A DNA stretch of 64,000 nucleotides. It comes from Halorussus marinus (GTDB taxonomy: Archaea > Halobacteriota > Halobacteria > Halobacteriales > Haladaptataceae). The stretch lies in assembly GCF_004765795.1 (NCBI RefSeq), contig NZ_SBIV01000001.1, positions 124,001 to 188,000 on the forward strand, read 5' to 3'. Each line of letters starts with the position of its first letter. Within the stretch, counting starts at the first letter, position 1. Shown here in pieces: positions 19,090 to 22,839 of the stretch. The notes beneath the pieces are model-generated. The model saw only the letters and a list, made by a program, of their open reading frames with translations. It had not been told where the DNA came from and did not search any database. The position numbers and the translations under genes were made by a program.

Positions 19090-20433
19090 TCAGACCAGGC
19101 TCGCGCCGTCGAACTCGGCGGCGTCGTACTCGACCTCGAGCAGGTCGAGGATCGTCGGGGTGATGTCGAAGAGATCGACGTCACGAACCGTCGCTTCGGG
19201 GTCGTCGACGAACAGCGACGCGTTGTCGAAGCTGTGCATCCCGTTGCGCGGGCCCTGACCGAACACGTCCTCGTGGCCCTTGAACCCGGCCTTGAGGTCG
19301 AAGCCGTAGTTCGGGATTGCGACGAGGTCGGGCGCGATGTCGTCGTGGTCGCCGTGGAAGGCGTCTTCTTTCTCGACCACGCGCTCGACGACTTTCCGAC
19401 CGTCGGGACCCTCTACGGCTTCGAGCGCCTCTTTGAGCTGGTCGCGCTTGGTCTCGTACTCGCTCTCGGGGACGCTCCCGCGGGGCTCGCGGCCTTCGAG
19501 GTTGATGTAGAACCGGCCCGGGATCAGCGAGTAGGCCTCGGTGTCGTCGGTGATGTCGCCGAGCTCCTCGTGGTCGTCGTCCTCGTAGGAGAGCCACCCC
19601 TCCTGTTCGAGCCAGGTGTTCGCGTAGAACTCGTAGTCGAGGGAGGTGAACCCGTGGTCGGAGGCGACCAGCATCGTCACGTCGTCGGGGAGGTTCTGGC
19701 GGATCTCGCCGACGTATCGGTCGAGCTTCCGGTAGAAGTCGAGGAACTCCTCTCTGTACTCGCCGTCCTCCTCGTAGTGTTTGAACAGGAAGTGGTTGAC
19801 CCGGTCGGTCGTCATGAACACGCCGAAAAAGAGGTCCCAGTCGTCCTGCTGGAGGTAGTGTTTGAACGCCTCGTAGCGGGCGTCGAGGGTCTCGTGGGCG
19901 TTCTCGATGAAGTCGCCTTTGTCCTCGTCGTGGCCGAGCTTGGCGTTGGCGTCGATCTTGTAGTCGATCGAGTCGAGGTACGAGCCGAGTTCGTCGGGGT
20001 AGGCCGCCTTGTCGATGCCCGGCGAGAGAAAGCCCGAGACCATCCGCTGGACGTTGCGCTGGGGCGGGAAGGTGACGGGGACGTTCATCACGGTCGCGTC
20101 CCGGCCGGCGTTCTGGACGCGATCCCACACTCGGGTCGCCTGGACGTCCCGACCCATCGGGACGTAGGTGTCGTACGAGCCGGTTTCGCGGTCTTGGAAG
20201 CCGTAGACGCCGGTCTGTCCGGGGTTGACGCCGGTGGTGAGGGAGGGCCAACACGCCGACGACTCGGGCGGGACGATGCTGTCTATCGGCCCGGCCGACC
20301 CCTCGTCGGCGAGCGCGGCGAGGTTCTCGAACTCGTCGAAGTGATCCTCGAGGAAACTGTACGGCACGCCGTCGATACCGAAGAACGCGACGCGGGGCTT
20401 GTCGTCGCCGCGGAGCTTATCGAAGAGTCCCAT
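19090..20433 (-). CDS. alkaline phosphatase superfamily phosphodiesterase
   Basis: A 447-residue type I phosphodiesterase/nucleotide pyrophosphatase-like hydrolase, probably cytoplasmic as no signal is seen. The metal sites of the superfamily are visible. FFGIDGVPYSFLEDHF is the first Asp site, and CWPSLTTGVNPGQTGVYGF holds the nucleophile Thr/Ser. Other sites are TTDRVNHFLFKHY, ASDHGFTSLDYEFY and the late GMHSFDNASLF histidine. The substrate cannot be told. The ATG at 20433 gives MGLFDKLRGDDKPRVA; the open frame extends nine codons further. A perfect 12-base palindrome lies 26-37 bases upstream. Confidence 0.85.
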   Translation of the reverse strand: MGLFDKLRGDDKPRVAFFGIDGVPYSFLEDHFDEFENLAALADEGSAGPIDSIVPPESSACWPSLTTGVNPGQTGVYGFQDRETGSYDTYVPMGRDVQATRVWDRVQNAGRDATVMNVPVTFPPQRNVQRMVSGFLSPGIDKAAYPDELGSYLDSIDYKIDANAKLGHDEDKGDFIENAHETLDARYEAFKHYLQQDDWDLFFGVFMTTDRVNHFLFKHYEEDGEYREEFLDFYRKLDRYVGEIRQNLPDDVTMLVASDHGFTSLDYEFYANTWLEQEGWLSYEDDDHEELGDITDDTEAYSLIPGRFYINLEGREPRGSVPESEYETKRDQLKEALEAVEGPDGRKVVERVVEKEDAFHGDHDDIAPDLVAIPNYGFDLKAGFKGHEDVFGQGPRNGMHSFDNASLFVDDPEATVRDVDLFDITPTILDLLEVEYDAAEFDGASLV

Positions 20434-20526: not shown

Positions 20527-21642
20527 TCAGGAGCTCTCGAACGCCTCGAACAGCGCCTTCCGGGTGCTCGCGTCGATGAGCATGTCGAGGGTCTCTTCCT
20601 GATCGTCGTCGACCTGCGAGAACAGTCCGAGGGGGACCCGGGCCGTCGCGGCGTCGGTGTTGCCGCCGGTGGTCTCGCTGGTCTCGAACGCGGAGTCGAG
20701 GATGTCGAACGCGTTGGTCCGGACGTCCTCGGCGCGACACGACACCACGATGGTCTCCTCGTGTATCCCGAACACCGCCGCGGTCGAGACGCCTTCGAGC
20801 CGGAGCATGGCGTCGGCGGCCTCTTCGAGCGCCGAGACCGCCGGGATCGACCCGACGTTCGTCACCGCGAAGCTCGCCCGGCGCTCGCGGTTGGCGATCG
20901 CGTCGCCGATCACGTCGAAGGTGTCGCCGCTCATGCCGGGCGATCGGAGGTCCTCGATGCGCCCGAGGTCGGCGTAGGTGTGGAGGTAGCCGGCGGCCTC
21001 GTAGTCCTGCTGGCCGTTCGCCCGGCGGAACTCCCGCGTGCCGGCCCGGATGCCGTGAAGGAGCGCGGTCGCGATCCGCTGGTCGGGGACCACGTTCTCG
21101 GTCTGGAGGAATCGCGCGACCGTGGTCGAGGTCGAGCCGTCTTCGGTGGGCGTCACCGTCAGGATGTTCTCCGCGGCGGTCGGCCGGTGGCGGACCACCG
21201 CGACCACCGGCGGGTTGTTCGAGAGCCGGGGGACCGCCCCGCCCCCGCCGACCGCGATCGCGGCGTCGAACTCGGTCAGCTCCTCGCTCCCGTCGCCGAT
21301 GACCGCGAACTCGAGGTCGAAGATGTTCGAGAACGCCTTGGTGTCCTCGCCGGTGATCTCTCCCTCCGCGAACAGTCGGGCGGTGACGCCCCACTCCTTG
21401 CAGAGTGCCCGGAGCCCGACCGCCGCCGCGAGCGCGTCGATGCTCGGGCCGTCGGGCACCACCAGCGCGACCCGGTTCTGGCCGGCGACCGTGTTCTTGA
21501 GCGCGTCGACCGGTGCGGGCTCGCGATCGCGTCGCCAGCCGGTGACCGACCGGGCGGCGTAGAGGACGACTCCACCGGCGACCACCACCGTGGCTGCCAT
21601 CGCGGCTAACTCCGCGTTCCCGAATCCGGTCCCGAGCGCCAT
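20527..21642 (-). CDS. membrane-anchored DHH/DHHA1-like protein, degenerate active site
   Basis: A 371-residue protein with an N-terminal transmembrane helix (residues 12-32) and a DHH/DHHA1 (NrnA-like) body. NrnA-type enzymes hydrolyse short RNAs, pAp or cyclic dinucleotides. The four metal-binding motifs appear altered. The DGDAL motif reads PDGPSIDALAAA, the second Asp site is AIAVGGGGAVP, the DHH triad is VVRHRPTAAEN, and DTGxF is IRAGTREFR. The DHHA1 part keeps a GGN motif (ETTGGNTDAATARVPLG). Catalysis is therefore doubtful. Pyrophosphatase lies upstream on the same strand. The start MALGTGFGN is chosen because upstream sequence in frame is not coding. Confidence 0.82.
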   Translation of the reverse strand: MALGTGFGNAELAAMAATVVVAGGVVLYAARSVTGWRRDREPAPVDALKNTVAGQNRVALVVPDGPSIDALAAAVGLRALCKEWGVTARLFAEGEITGEDTKAFSNIFDLEFAVIGDGSEELTEFDAAIAVGGGGAVPRLSNNPPVVAVVRHRPTAAENILTVTPTEDGSTSTTVARFLQTENVVPDQRIATALLHGIRAGTREFRRANGQQDYEAAGYLHTYADLGRIEDLRSPGMSGDTFDVIGDAIANRERRASFAVTNVGSIPAVSALEEAADAMLRLEGVSTAAVFGIHEETIVVSCRAEDVRTNAFDILDSAFETSETTGGNTDAATARVPLGLFSQVDDDQEETLDMLIDASTRKALFEAFESS

Positions 21643-21731
21643 CGCTTCGGGGTCCCGATTCCAGCGATAAATATTTTCGGGAGGCCGTCCGGAACGTGAA
21701 AATACTCTGCAGACCGAGGGCGGCCGATCGA

Positions 21732-22265
21732 CTACGCGAACGTCTCGTCGTAGAGGTCCATCGCGTGCTCGATCGCGTCTTTGGCCGCCTGCTTGTCCTC
21801 CCAGCCCAGCGTCTCGACTTCCTTGCCCTCCTCGAGGTTCTTGTAGGTCGCGAAGAACTCGTCGATCTCGTCGAGGGTCTGTTGGGGGATGTCGTCGAGG
21901 TCCTCGACGTGGTCGTAGCGGGGGTCTTCGGTCGGCACCGCGATGACCTTGTCGTCCTGCTCGCCGTCGTCGTCCATCTTCATCAGCGCGACCGGGCGGG
22001 CCTCGACGATACAGCCCGGGAACGTCTGGTCCTCGACGAGGACGAGCACGTCGAAGGGGTCCTCGTCGTCGTAGTACGACTGGGGGATGAACCCGTAGTC
22101 GCTGGGGTAGTGGACGTTGCTGTGGAGGACGCGATCGAGCACGACGCCGGGGACGTCCTTGTCGTACTCGTACTTGTTGCGTTCGCCTTTGAGACACTCG
22201 ACGACGGCGTAGATCTCCTCGGGCGGGTTCGGTCCGGCTTCCAGGTCTTCCCAGAGGTTCGTCAT
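21732..22265 (-). CDS. ppa: inorganic pyrophosphatase
   Basis: A 177-residue soluble family I pyrophosphatase that hydrolyses PPi and drives biosynthetic reactions. Active-site blocks are intact: KYEYDKDVPGVVLDRVLHSN, HYPSDYGFIPQSYYDDEDPFD and the metal-binding EDPRYDHVEDLDDI. The length is typical. The gene diverges from padR, sharing a 217-base control region. A BRE-like GCCGAAAGG on its strand at about 22295-22303 lies near the expected promoter position. Confidence 0.96.
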   Translation of the reverse strand: MTNLWEDLEAGPNPPEEIYAVVECLKGERNKYEYDKDVPGVVLDRVLHSNVHYPSDYGFIPQSYYDDEDPFDVLVLVEDQTFPGCIVEARPVALMKMDDDGEQDDKVIAVPTEDPRYDHVEDLDDIPQQTLDEIDEFFATYKNLEEGKEVETLGWEDKQAAKDAIEHAMDLYDETFA

Positions 22266-22449: not shown

Positions 22450-22482
22450 ACGAGCGTGACAAATTATCGACTGTCAGAGTCT

Positions 22483-22839
22483 ATGTCAGAGGCACAGACA
22501 CTCACAGAGACGAGTACCGCTCGCAACCTCACCGCGTTCCAGCAGAACATCCTGACCATCCTCTCCGAGGAGCCGATGTACGGCCTCGCCATCAAGCGCG
22601 AACTCGAAGAGTTCTACGGCGAAGAGGTCAATCACGGACGTCTGTACCCCAACCTCGACACGCTCGTCGAGAAGGGCTACGTCGAGAAGAGCGAGCTCGA
22701 CAAGCGGACCAACCAGTACGAGCTGACCGACGAGGGCCTCGCGGTCGTCGTCGACGCGCTCCAGTGGACCCTCTCGAAGTTCGTCACCGACGACGAACGC
22801 GCCGAGCAGGTTCGGGAGCTCGTCGCCGACACCGAGTAG
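22483..22839 (+). CDS. PadR family transcriptional regulator
   Basis: A 118-residue winged-helix DNA-binding protein. The PadR core is clear: LTAFQQNILTILSEEPMYG, then GRLYPNLDTLVEKGYVEKSE as recognition helix and wing, and a short dimerisation helix. Haloarchaeal homologues share the disordered MSEAQ-type N-terminus. The ATG at 22483 is preferred over 22456 because the TATA box is too close to the latter. Symmetric repeats just upstream may be its own operator. The signal it senses is unknown. Its stop abuts the stop of the convergent gene at 22840. Confidence 0.9.
   Translation: MSEAQTLTETSTARNLTAFQQNILTILSEEPMYGLAIKRELEEFYGEEVNHGRLYPNLDTLVEKGYVEKSELDKRTNQYELTDEGLAVVVDALQWTLSKFVTDDERAEQVRELVADTE

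Follow-up and report, generated by a model that had tools for sequence, protein, structure and literature searches.

What does a membrane-anchored DHH-DHHA1 protein do once most of the residues expected at its active site have been replaced? This question is raised by pDHH (pseudo-DHH-DHHA1 gene), a gene in the window, by which we mean the whole 64,000-nucleotide stretch of Halorussus marinus DNA analyzed here. The coordinates given for pDHH in the original prediction were exact, with the gene on the minus strand (Table 1). Among the titles listed in our literature searches, there is no description of this protein.

Table 1. Features of the pDHH locus, with positions in the window
Feature	Positions	Strand	Basis
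pDHH, 371 aa	20527..21642	minus	open frame (ATG at 21642, stop ends at 20527, 371 codons), DHHA1 match, paralogue identity
N-terminal membrane helix, residues 9-33, Arg after helix	21544..21618	minus	hydropathy, Arg/Lys count, model
Altered motif I, residues 63-69, P63 for H20, S67 for D24, D69 = D26	21436..21456	minus	alignments
Altered motif II, residues 131-135, VGGGG for VDH	21238..21252	minus	alignments
Altered motif III, residues 151-154, RHRP for DHH-P	21181..21192	minus	alignments
Altered motif IV, residues 199-207, RAGTREFRR, G201 at D156 position	21022..21048	minus	alignments
DHHA1-like region, residues 263-345	20608..20856	minus	PF02272 below cut-off; model low-confidence here
DHHA1 GGH motif changed to GGN (N328)	20659..20667	minus	36 loci compared with intact paralogues
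TATA-like box, 23-38 bases before ATG	21665..21680	minus	AT core in 34/34 orthologues
Family I inorganic pyrophosphatase, upstream neighbor	21732..22265	minus	PF00719, 4e-56
Type I phosphodiesterase/nucleotide pyrophosphatase-like protein, downstream neighbor	19090..20433	minus	PF01663, 7.6e-51

A DHH protein with a DHHA1-like region and an N-terminal membrane helix

The 371-residue pDHH protein consists of one N-terminal membrane helix followed by a body of the NrnA/GdpP class, with a DHH domain and a DHHA1-like region. It is acidic overall, with 55 Asp and Glu compared to 30 Lys and Arg, and contains only 4 His and 2 Cys. Hydropathy revealed a hydrophobic N-terminal stretch near residues 9-33 in 34 of 36 orthologous loci, bearing out the earlier claim that a membrane anchor is kept, and a helix at the same residues is also present in the predicted model of pDHH. 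The two loci without this stretch (L030 and L034) both have disrupted frames. Since the 15 residues after the helix hold more Arg and Lys than those before it in all 34 orthologues counted, the positive-inside rule would assign the body to the cytoplasmic side, where it also lies in GdpP, and we predict this orientation for pDHH. Separately, we observed that the pDHH frame is disrupted in two Haladaptatus-group genomes, with the anchor out of frame in L030 and an internal stop in L034/L066; the gene may be dispensable or in the course of being lost in some Haladaptatus, or these may be sequencing errors.

The homology of the body was most evident from comparisons within the window's own genome and order. 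In Pfam, pDHH matched DHHA1 (PF02272) at 7.1e-5 with 23.6 bits, which lies below the cut-off of 25.9, and the DHH family at only 0.2, while DHHA2 gave no match at E ≤ 1. A search of PDB chains with the single pDHH sequence returned one match, the GdpP-type phosphodiesterase 5xt3 (E 0.029). A mixed profile of seven pDHH and three RCK-DHH rows matched the c-di-AMP phosphodiesterase 9n0l at 7e-17, a strength owed to the three RCK-DHH rows in the profile. Within the genome of the window, blastp found four DHH proteins at 29-33% identity to pDHH over more than 300 residues, and the alignment to an RCK-DHH paralogue of the intact class (32-33% identity over 317 aa) extends through the DHHA1-like region to residue 368. 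A profile of 28 of the 36 orthologous loci (A1, leaving out L013, L015, L018, L020, L021, L028, L034, and L041) matched four NrnA-type paralogues in the same genome (L001-L004) at 1.5e-62 to 1.4e-39; a second set, A2, comprises 10 of 11 named loci of Halorussus, Haladaptatus, and Halobacterium, leaving out the broken L066. The two RecJ-type paralogues of the genome (L005 and L006) were unmatched by A1 at E ≤ 10, and we rejected a replication pseudoenzyme of the RecJ/Cdc45 type on this ground.

An AlphaFold2 model of pDHH built from 11 sequences reached a mean confidence of 52.5 over all residues and was usable only in the DHH part, from residue 41 to about 225, where blocks mostly scored 52-89. 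With this predicted model, Foldseek gave 48 PDB matches at E ≤ 0.001, and those listed comprised family II pyrophosphatases in the first row, then GdpP and NrnA-like proteins, as well as RecJ-like entries named just "DNA replication protein". VIA-align of the model over residues of about 40-234, which make up the DHH fold, gave Z scores of 16 to 20 against family II pyrophosphatases, NrnA, and GdpP, the GdpP catalytic domain with pApA reaching Z 20.0 (rmsd 3.2, 190 aligned), and 11.6 to 12.7 against RecJ- and Cdc45-type rows. The model supports the earlier claim that the fold is kept, as far as the first domain is concerned. The DHHA1 half was low in confidence and still poor when modeled alone; a fold search with this poor model listed RecJ, DhhP, and the AlaRS C-Ala domain at about 1e-3, none at 0.001 or below, with histidine-kinase rows lower in the list.

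GdpP has a membrane and regulatory part, in place of which pDHH has one helix. The original prediction had compared pDHH to GdpP-like proteins, and this analogy holds in part: GdpP is the best structural match of the DHH part, and both have a membrane-tethered body of the DHH-DHHA1 type that is cytoplasmic in GdpP and predicted to be so in pDHH, but the site residues are lost in pDHH, and no other GdpP-type domain was listed beside the body, with neither PAS nor GGDEF among the four Pfam families at E ≤ 1.

Replacement and conservation of the active-site residues

The active site of NrnA, as described in PMC9757072, comprises D24, D26, D80, D156, H20, H103, and H104. By alignment, five of these seven residues are replaced in pDHH (H20 by P63, D24 by S67, D80 by a Gly run, H104 by R153, and D156 by G201), while D26 and H103 survive as D69 and H152. 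In addition, the Asp of the DHH motif has become R151. Motif I changes from H-x-N-P-D-P-D in intact paralogues to P-x-x-[P/A]-S-[I/V]-D, and the VDH of motif II gives way to a run of four glycines (132-135), where the aligner leaves a gap of two residues at the D and H columns. The original prediction that all four metal-binding motifs are changed was therefore confirmed against intact paralogues, and neither a DHH string nor H-x3-D-x-D occurs elsewhere in the protein. Its reading of DHH as RHR also stands, but the proposed change of DTG to AGT was one residue out of register: the D/E-T of the paralogues is G-T in pDHH, with G201 at the Asp position and the Thr kept as T202. In the DHHA1-like region, the GGGH His, which is present in all intact paralogues tabulated, is Asn in 28 of 36 loci and Asp in the other 8, Asp being the residue in Halobacterium.

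These replacements recur in all 36 orthologues examined, wherever they could be read. P63 and S67 are invariant in 35 of 35 loci, one copy being broken at its N-terminus so that motif I was read in 35 of 36; R151, R153, and G132-135 show no variation in any of the 36; and position 201 is Gly in 35 and Ala in one. The eight loci left out of A1 agree on the site residues, L034 being readable only from motif II on, and the 36-locus readings leave aside five Halobacterium orthologues (G135, G146, G151, G160, and G165). Overall, Pro, Ser, Gly, and Arg have taken the place of acidic residues that bind metal. NrnA with D80N and D156N has no detectable RNase activity while still binding dinucleotide with metals, according to PMC9757072. 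Since pDHH retains only one of the five Asp at this site, a two-metal site should be unable to form and hydrolysis would be very unlikely, as extrapolated from that NrnA mutant, and the loss of the DHHA1 His speaks against an unchanged nucleotide site.

We found that the altered positions are held by selection. In motif windows that we chose ourselves, 24 of 36 positions are invariant, against 135 of 324 over the core as a whole (hypergeometric p 0.0012), and the replaced residues are fixed across 54% identity. The median pairwise dN/dS within genus is 0.162 for pDHH and 0.129 for the pyrophosphatase, each over 18 rows; the downstream gene gives 0.158 over 16 rows. Since the replacements recur in 36 loci and dN/dS resembles that of the flanking genes, these findings point to a maintained pseudoenzyme and not a decaying gene, in line with the earlier view of lost catalytic residues, the new ones being fixed under purifying selection. 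Together, the sequence comparisons establish the homology, the anchor, the loss of five of seven site residues and the DHHA1 His, and the fixation of the new residues, and by the same comparisons the site is rebuilt and kept rather than abandoned.

Relatives and distribution among haloarchaea

A pDHH orthologue was found in 41 of 293 evenly drawn genomes of the order (best E 3.5e-102 or lower), namely in all 28 genomes of the window's family (Halorussus and Haladaptatus) and, within another family, in all 13 genomes of a single genus, Halobacterium. Genomes without an orthologue gave a best match of 1.5e-57 or weaker, and the matches listed are longer DHH proteins with no more than 38% identity. 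Two small incomplete genomes gave no match at all. The viral contigs scanned held no relative. In a tree of the downstream gene, Halobacterium groups with its own family (98/92) while Halorussus and Haladaptatus fall elsewhere, and on this basis we rejected the idea that the gene block passed as a unit from one lineage to the other. From this tree, the presence of pDHH needs at least two changes, and loss elsewhere is indistinguishable from one transfer of pDHH alone. One genome, G130, carries a second pDHH copy (L128:5476-6612) with 53% identity beside a HAD-type hydrolase gene; this copy keeps P-S-D, RHR, and G-T, and has a GGAG glycine run and Gln in place of R303.

In a tree of 43 rows, whose root was not inferred, pDHH forms one clade (100/100), which a split supported at 95/86 places together with RCK-DHH family A and apart from B, C, and D. 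Since the pDHH branch is long, at 1.7 changes per column, this placement could be an artifact. Family A, an RCK(TrkA-N)-DHH-DHHA1 family represented in the window's genome by L001, is nearest to pDHH by both score and tree, and has likewise changed H104 and D156: in 24 of 26 rows the second His of DHH has given way to Phe, Tyr, or some other residue, and Glu stands in for D156 in all 26, which include one identical pair. On the other hand, family A has TrkA_N instead of a membrane helix, and all 26 of its rows retain D26, D80, the DHH Asp, and the GGH His. Isolated changes in family A occur at H20 (3), D24 (4), and H103 (2). All seven site residues are intact in family B (10 rows) and in family C (6 rows), and family D (3 rows) has only D156 changed to Glu. 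Since the nearest RCK-DHH relatives are already half-altered, stepwise loss of the site is suggested, in a graded series ending in pDHH. The ancestor would be a haloarchaeal phosphoesterase of the DHH-DHHA1 type and the NrnA/GdpP class, most likely from the RCK-DHH lineage, with the RCK domain either lost or never acquired by pDHH. Family C, represented by L004, resembles pDHH in having one N-terminal helix and a DHH-DHHA1 body, but its site residues are intact and it lies far from pDHH in the tree. Family A proteins (L001, L043-L058, L102-L109, and L118), with DHF, DHY, or DHN motifs, occurred in every genome sampled for the tree, and the activity of family A may likewise be weakened or altered. 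By description, it is probably arCOG01566 of PMC3307487, where arCOG01565 and arCOG01566 are given as DHH-DHHA1 proteins, some with NAD-binding domains, in an account that does not call them inactivated.

Other known DHH proteins also differ from pDHH in site or context. NrnA/CnpB nanoRNases and pAp/pApA phosphatases share its apparent domain order, length, and DHH fold (Z 18 to 19), but pDHH has replaced five of the seven site residues and the GGGH His and has a membrane anchor. Family II pyrophosphatases have the same DHH fold and occupy the first Foldseek row, but theirs is a DHHA2 domain, according to PMC3307487, while pDHH shows the DHHA1 match described above. The neighboring pyrophosphatase belongs to family I and is unrelated to family II. 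Inactivated DHH proteins are established, as PMC7776575 and PMC3307487 describe for Cdc45, RecJdbh, and haloarchaeal arCOG00428, and these sources offer a precedent for DHH proteins that lose catalysis and become structural; those proteins, however, belong to the RecJ branch and a replication context, whereas pDHH is membrane-anchored. PMC3307487 places arCOG00428-type genes near ribosomal S15/S3 and Pcc1, and in the loci compared these are not direct neighbors of pDHH, which has the pyrophosphatase and phosphodiesterase-like genes instead. What is new in pDHH is a probably inactivated member of the NrnA/GdpP branch that is anchored in the membrane.

Possible roles and genomic context

The reading that we favor, and consider somewhat probable, is that pDHH is a maintained pseudoenzyme acting as a membrane-tethered, non-hydrolyzing receptor or scaffold with a metal-poor pocket that contains Arg. 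One helix would hold the body on the cytoplasmic face of the membrane. With most metal ligands replaced by Pro, Ser, Gly, and two Arg, the site would neither hold two metals nor hydrolyze, and the former cleft, with the two new Arg, the kept His152, Asp69, and Arg303, and the Gly-rich loop, could serve as a metal-free binding site for a phosphorylated ligand or as a docking surface, through which the tethered protein would act on another protein. Since the rebuilt cleft is invariant, something may still bind there, and the arginines favor an anion such as a phosphate ester; the ligand and the partner are our conjecture from these residues. If this reading is right, pDHH would represent a third, independent route by which catalysis is lost in the DHH fold, in the second-messenger NrnA/GdpP branch and at the membrane. 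Its intermediate stages would still exist in the same genomes, as DHF/DHY and E-T in RCK-DHH family A. The reading would also bear on how haloarchaea read and remove c-di-AMP, and since Halobacterium salinarum carries pDHH, a cultivable model is available for this question.

Mixed pairs of active and inactive subunits are a common mode of pseudoenzyme action. We considered whether pDHH is a dead subunit of an active DHH-DHHA1 enzyme, such as RCK-DHH A or B, which it would join in a mixed dimer and recruit to the membrane with no ligand of its own. The DHHA1-like body is kept in pDHH, and A and B are present in all whole genomes with pDHH that were searched with A1 (G000, G017, G027, and G064). 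In the Halobacterium genomes G027 and G064, pDHH, A, and B were the only NrnA-type proteins found, and A or B are thus the candidates if pDHH pairs with an intact DHH protein; families C and D were not found in these two pDHH-bearing genomes, and an obligate pairing with the intact, membrane-anchored family C was rejected on this ground. However, pDHH is not genetically linked to A or B, and both also occur in all six searched genomes without pDHH, so there is no co-occurrence signal. Pure docking also fails by itself to explain why conservation is highest at the former active-site residues. We regard this alternative as possible but improbable.

The original prediction offered a non-catalytic nucleotide sensor or a partner of an active DHH enzyme as possible roles, and sensing of a cyclic dinucleotide or pAp by pDHH is likewise conjectural here. 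A more specific form of the receptor reading is that pDHH, tethered to the membrane, binds c-di-AMP or its product pApA in haloarchaea without needing metals, because the glycine loop and the two arginines that are new to the site have taken phosphate binding over from the lost metals. If true, a degrading enzyme would have turned into a sensor of the same molecule. The genome of the window holds a gene with a diadenylate cyclase domain, and the c-di-AMP phosphodiesterase of Haloferax and other haloarchaea awaits identification according to the literature consulted. We consider this form unlikely.

Changed chemistry is another explanation for a site whose residues are invariant in 36 loci and in which D69 and H152 are kept: R-H-R, the Gly-rich loop, and D69/H152 might form a new site, for instance for metal-free phosphotransfer or hydrolysis. 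We recognized no known catalytic motif, though, and a protein with so few His and Cys, in which four of the five site Asp are gone, makes such an activity quite unlikely.

The gene order raises the alternative that pDHH regulates the pyrophosphatase or the downstream phosphodiesterase-like protein. In all 36 loci, the pyrophosphatase gene adjoins pDHH on the same strand. The phosphodiesterase-like gene comes next, also on that strand, in the 34 of 36 loci that have it within the flank; in G050 it lies about 4 kb away. However, these two genes also stand together in genomes without pDHH. In one set of 17 loci from such genomes, the pair lies within 1.5 kb in 9; a further comparison of 17 loci, including nine preselected ones, showed the order in 14, and no remnant of pDHH was detected in the 14 gaps (best E 1.7). 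The order PadR-pyrophosphatase-phosphodiesterase also exists without pDHH. The second copy in G130 lies elsewhere, and pDHH has a promoter-like box of its own. In the window, the box upstream of the pDHH ATG reads CCGAAAATATTTATC, which is compatible with an archaeal BRE/TATA element and a leaderless start. An AT core at -38 to -23 was found in 34 of 34 orthologues, compared to 1.4% on average and 5.9% at most in control windows, with a wide pattern chosen after seeing the sequences; the first, narrow pattern matched 5 of 34 upstream regions, and a sigma-70 scan is not suited to archaea. These findings suggest that pDHH has its own promoter and a leaderless transcript. Since the pair occurs without pDHH and pDHH has its own promoter-like box, the gene order says little about function: the pyrophosphatase does lie beside pDHH, as originally predicted, but its value as a functional hint is weakened, a pyrophosphatase operon partner was rejected as the main reading, and regulation of either neighbor appears very unlikely.

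Although frames are disrupted in 2 of 36 orthologues and the distribution is patchy, pDHH is extremely unlikely to be a pseudogene in decay or what neutrally remains of a lost enzyme, and this reading is ruled out for the clade by the substitution pattern, with dN/dS of 0.16 within the range of the neighbors and replacements fixed across 54% identity.

Two further observations concern the flanking genes. A gene for a PadR-type regulator (window positions 22456-22839, plus strand) lies divergently beside the pyrophosphatase gene, and the same arrangement is seen in the named loci L059-L069. A short frame encoding the peptide H-x-T-V-V-P, unmatched in the window and in the Halorussus and Haladaptatus loci, lies between the pyrophosphatase and phosphodiesterase-like genes in several families and in Halobacterium (L035, L036, L037, L038, L040, L041, L067, L069, L089, L091, L092, L096, L097, L129-L131, and L133-L136), and some of these frames also carry a CPxCG Cys pair.
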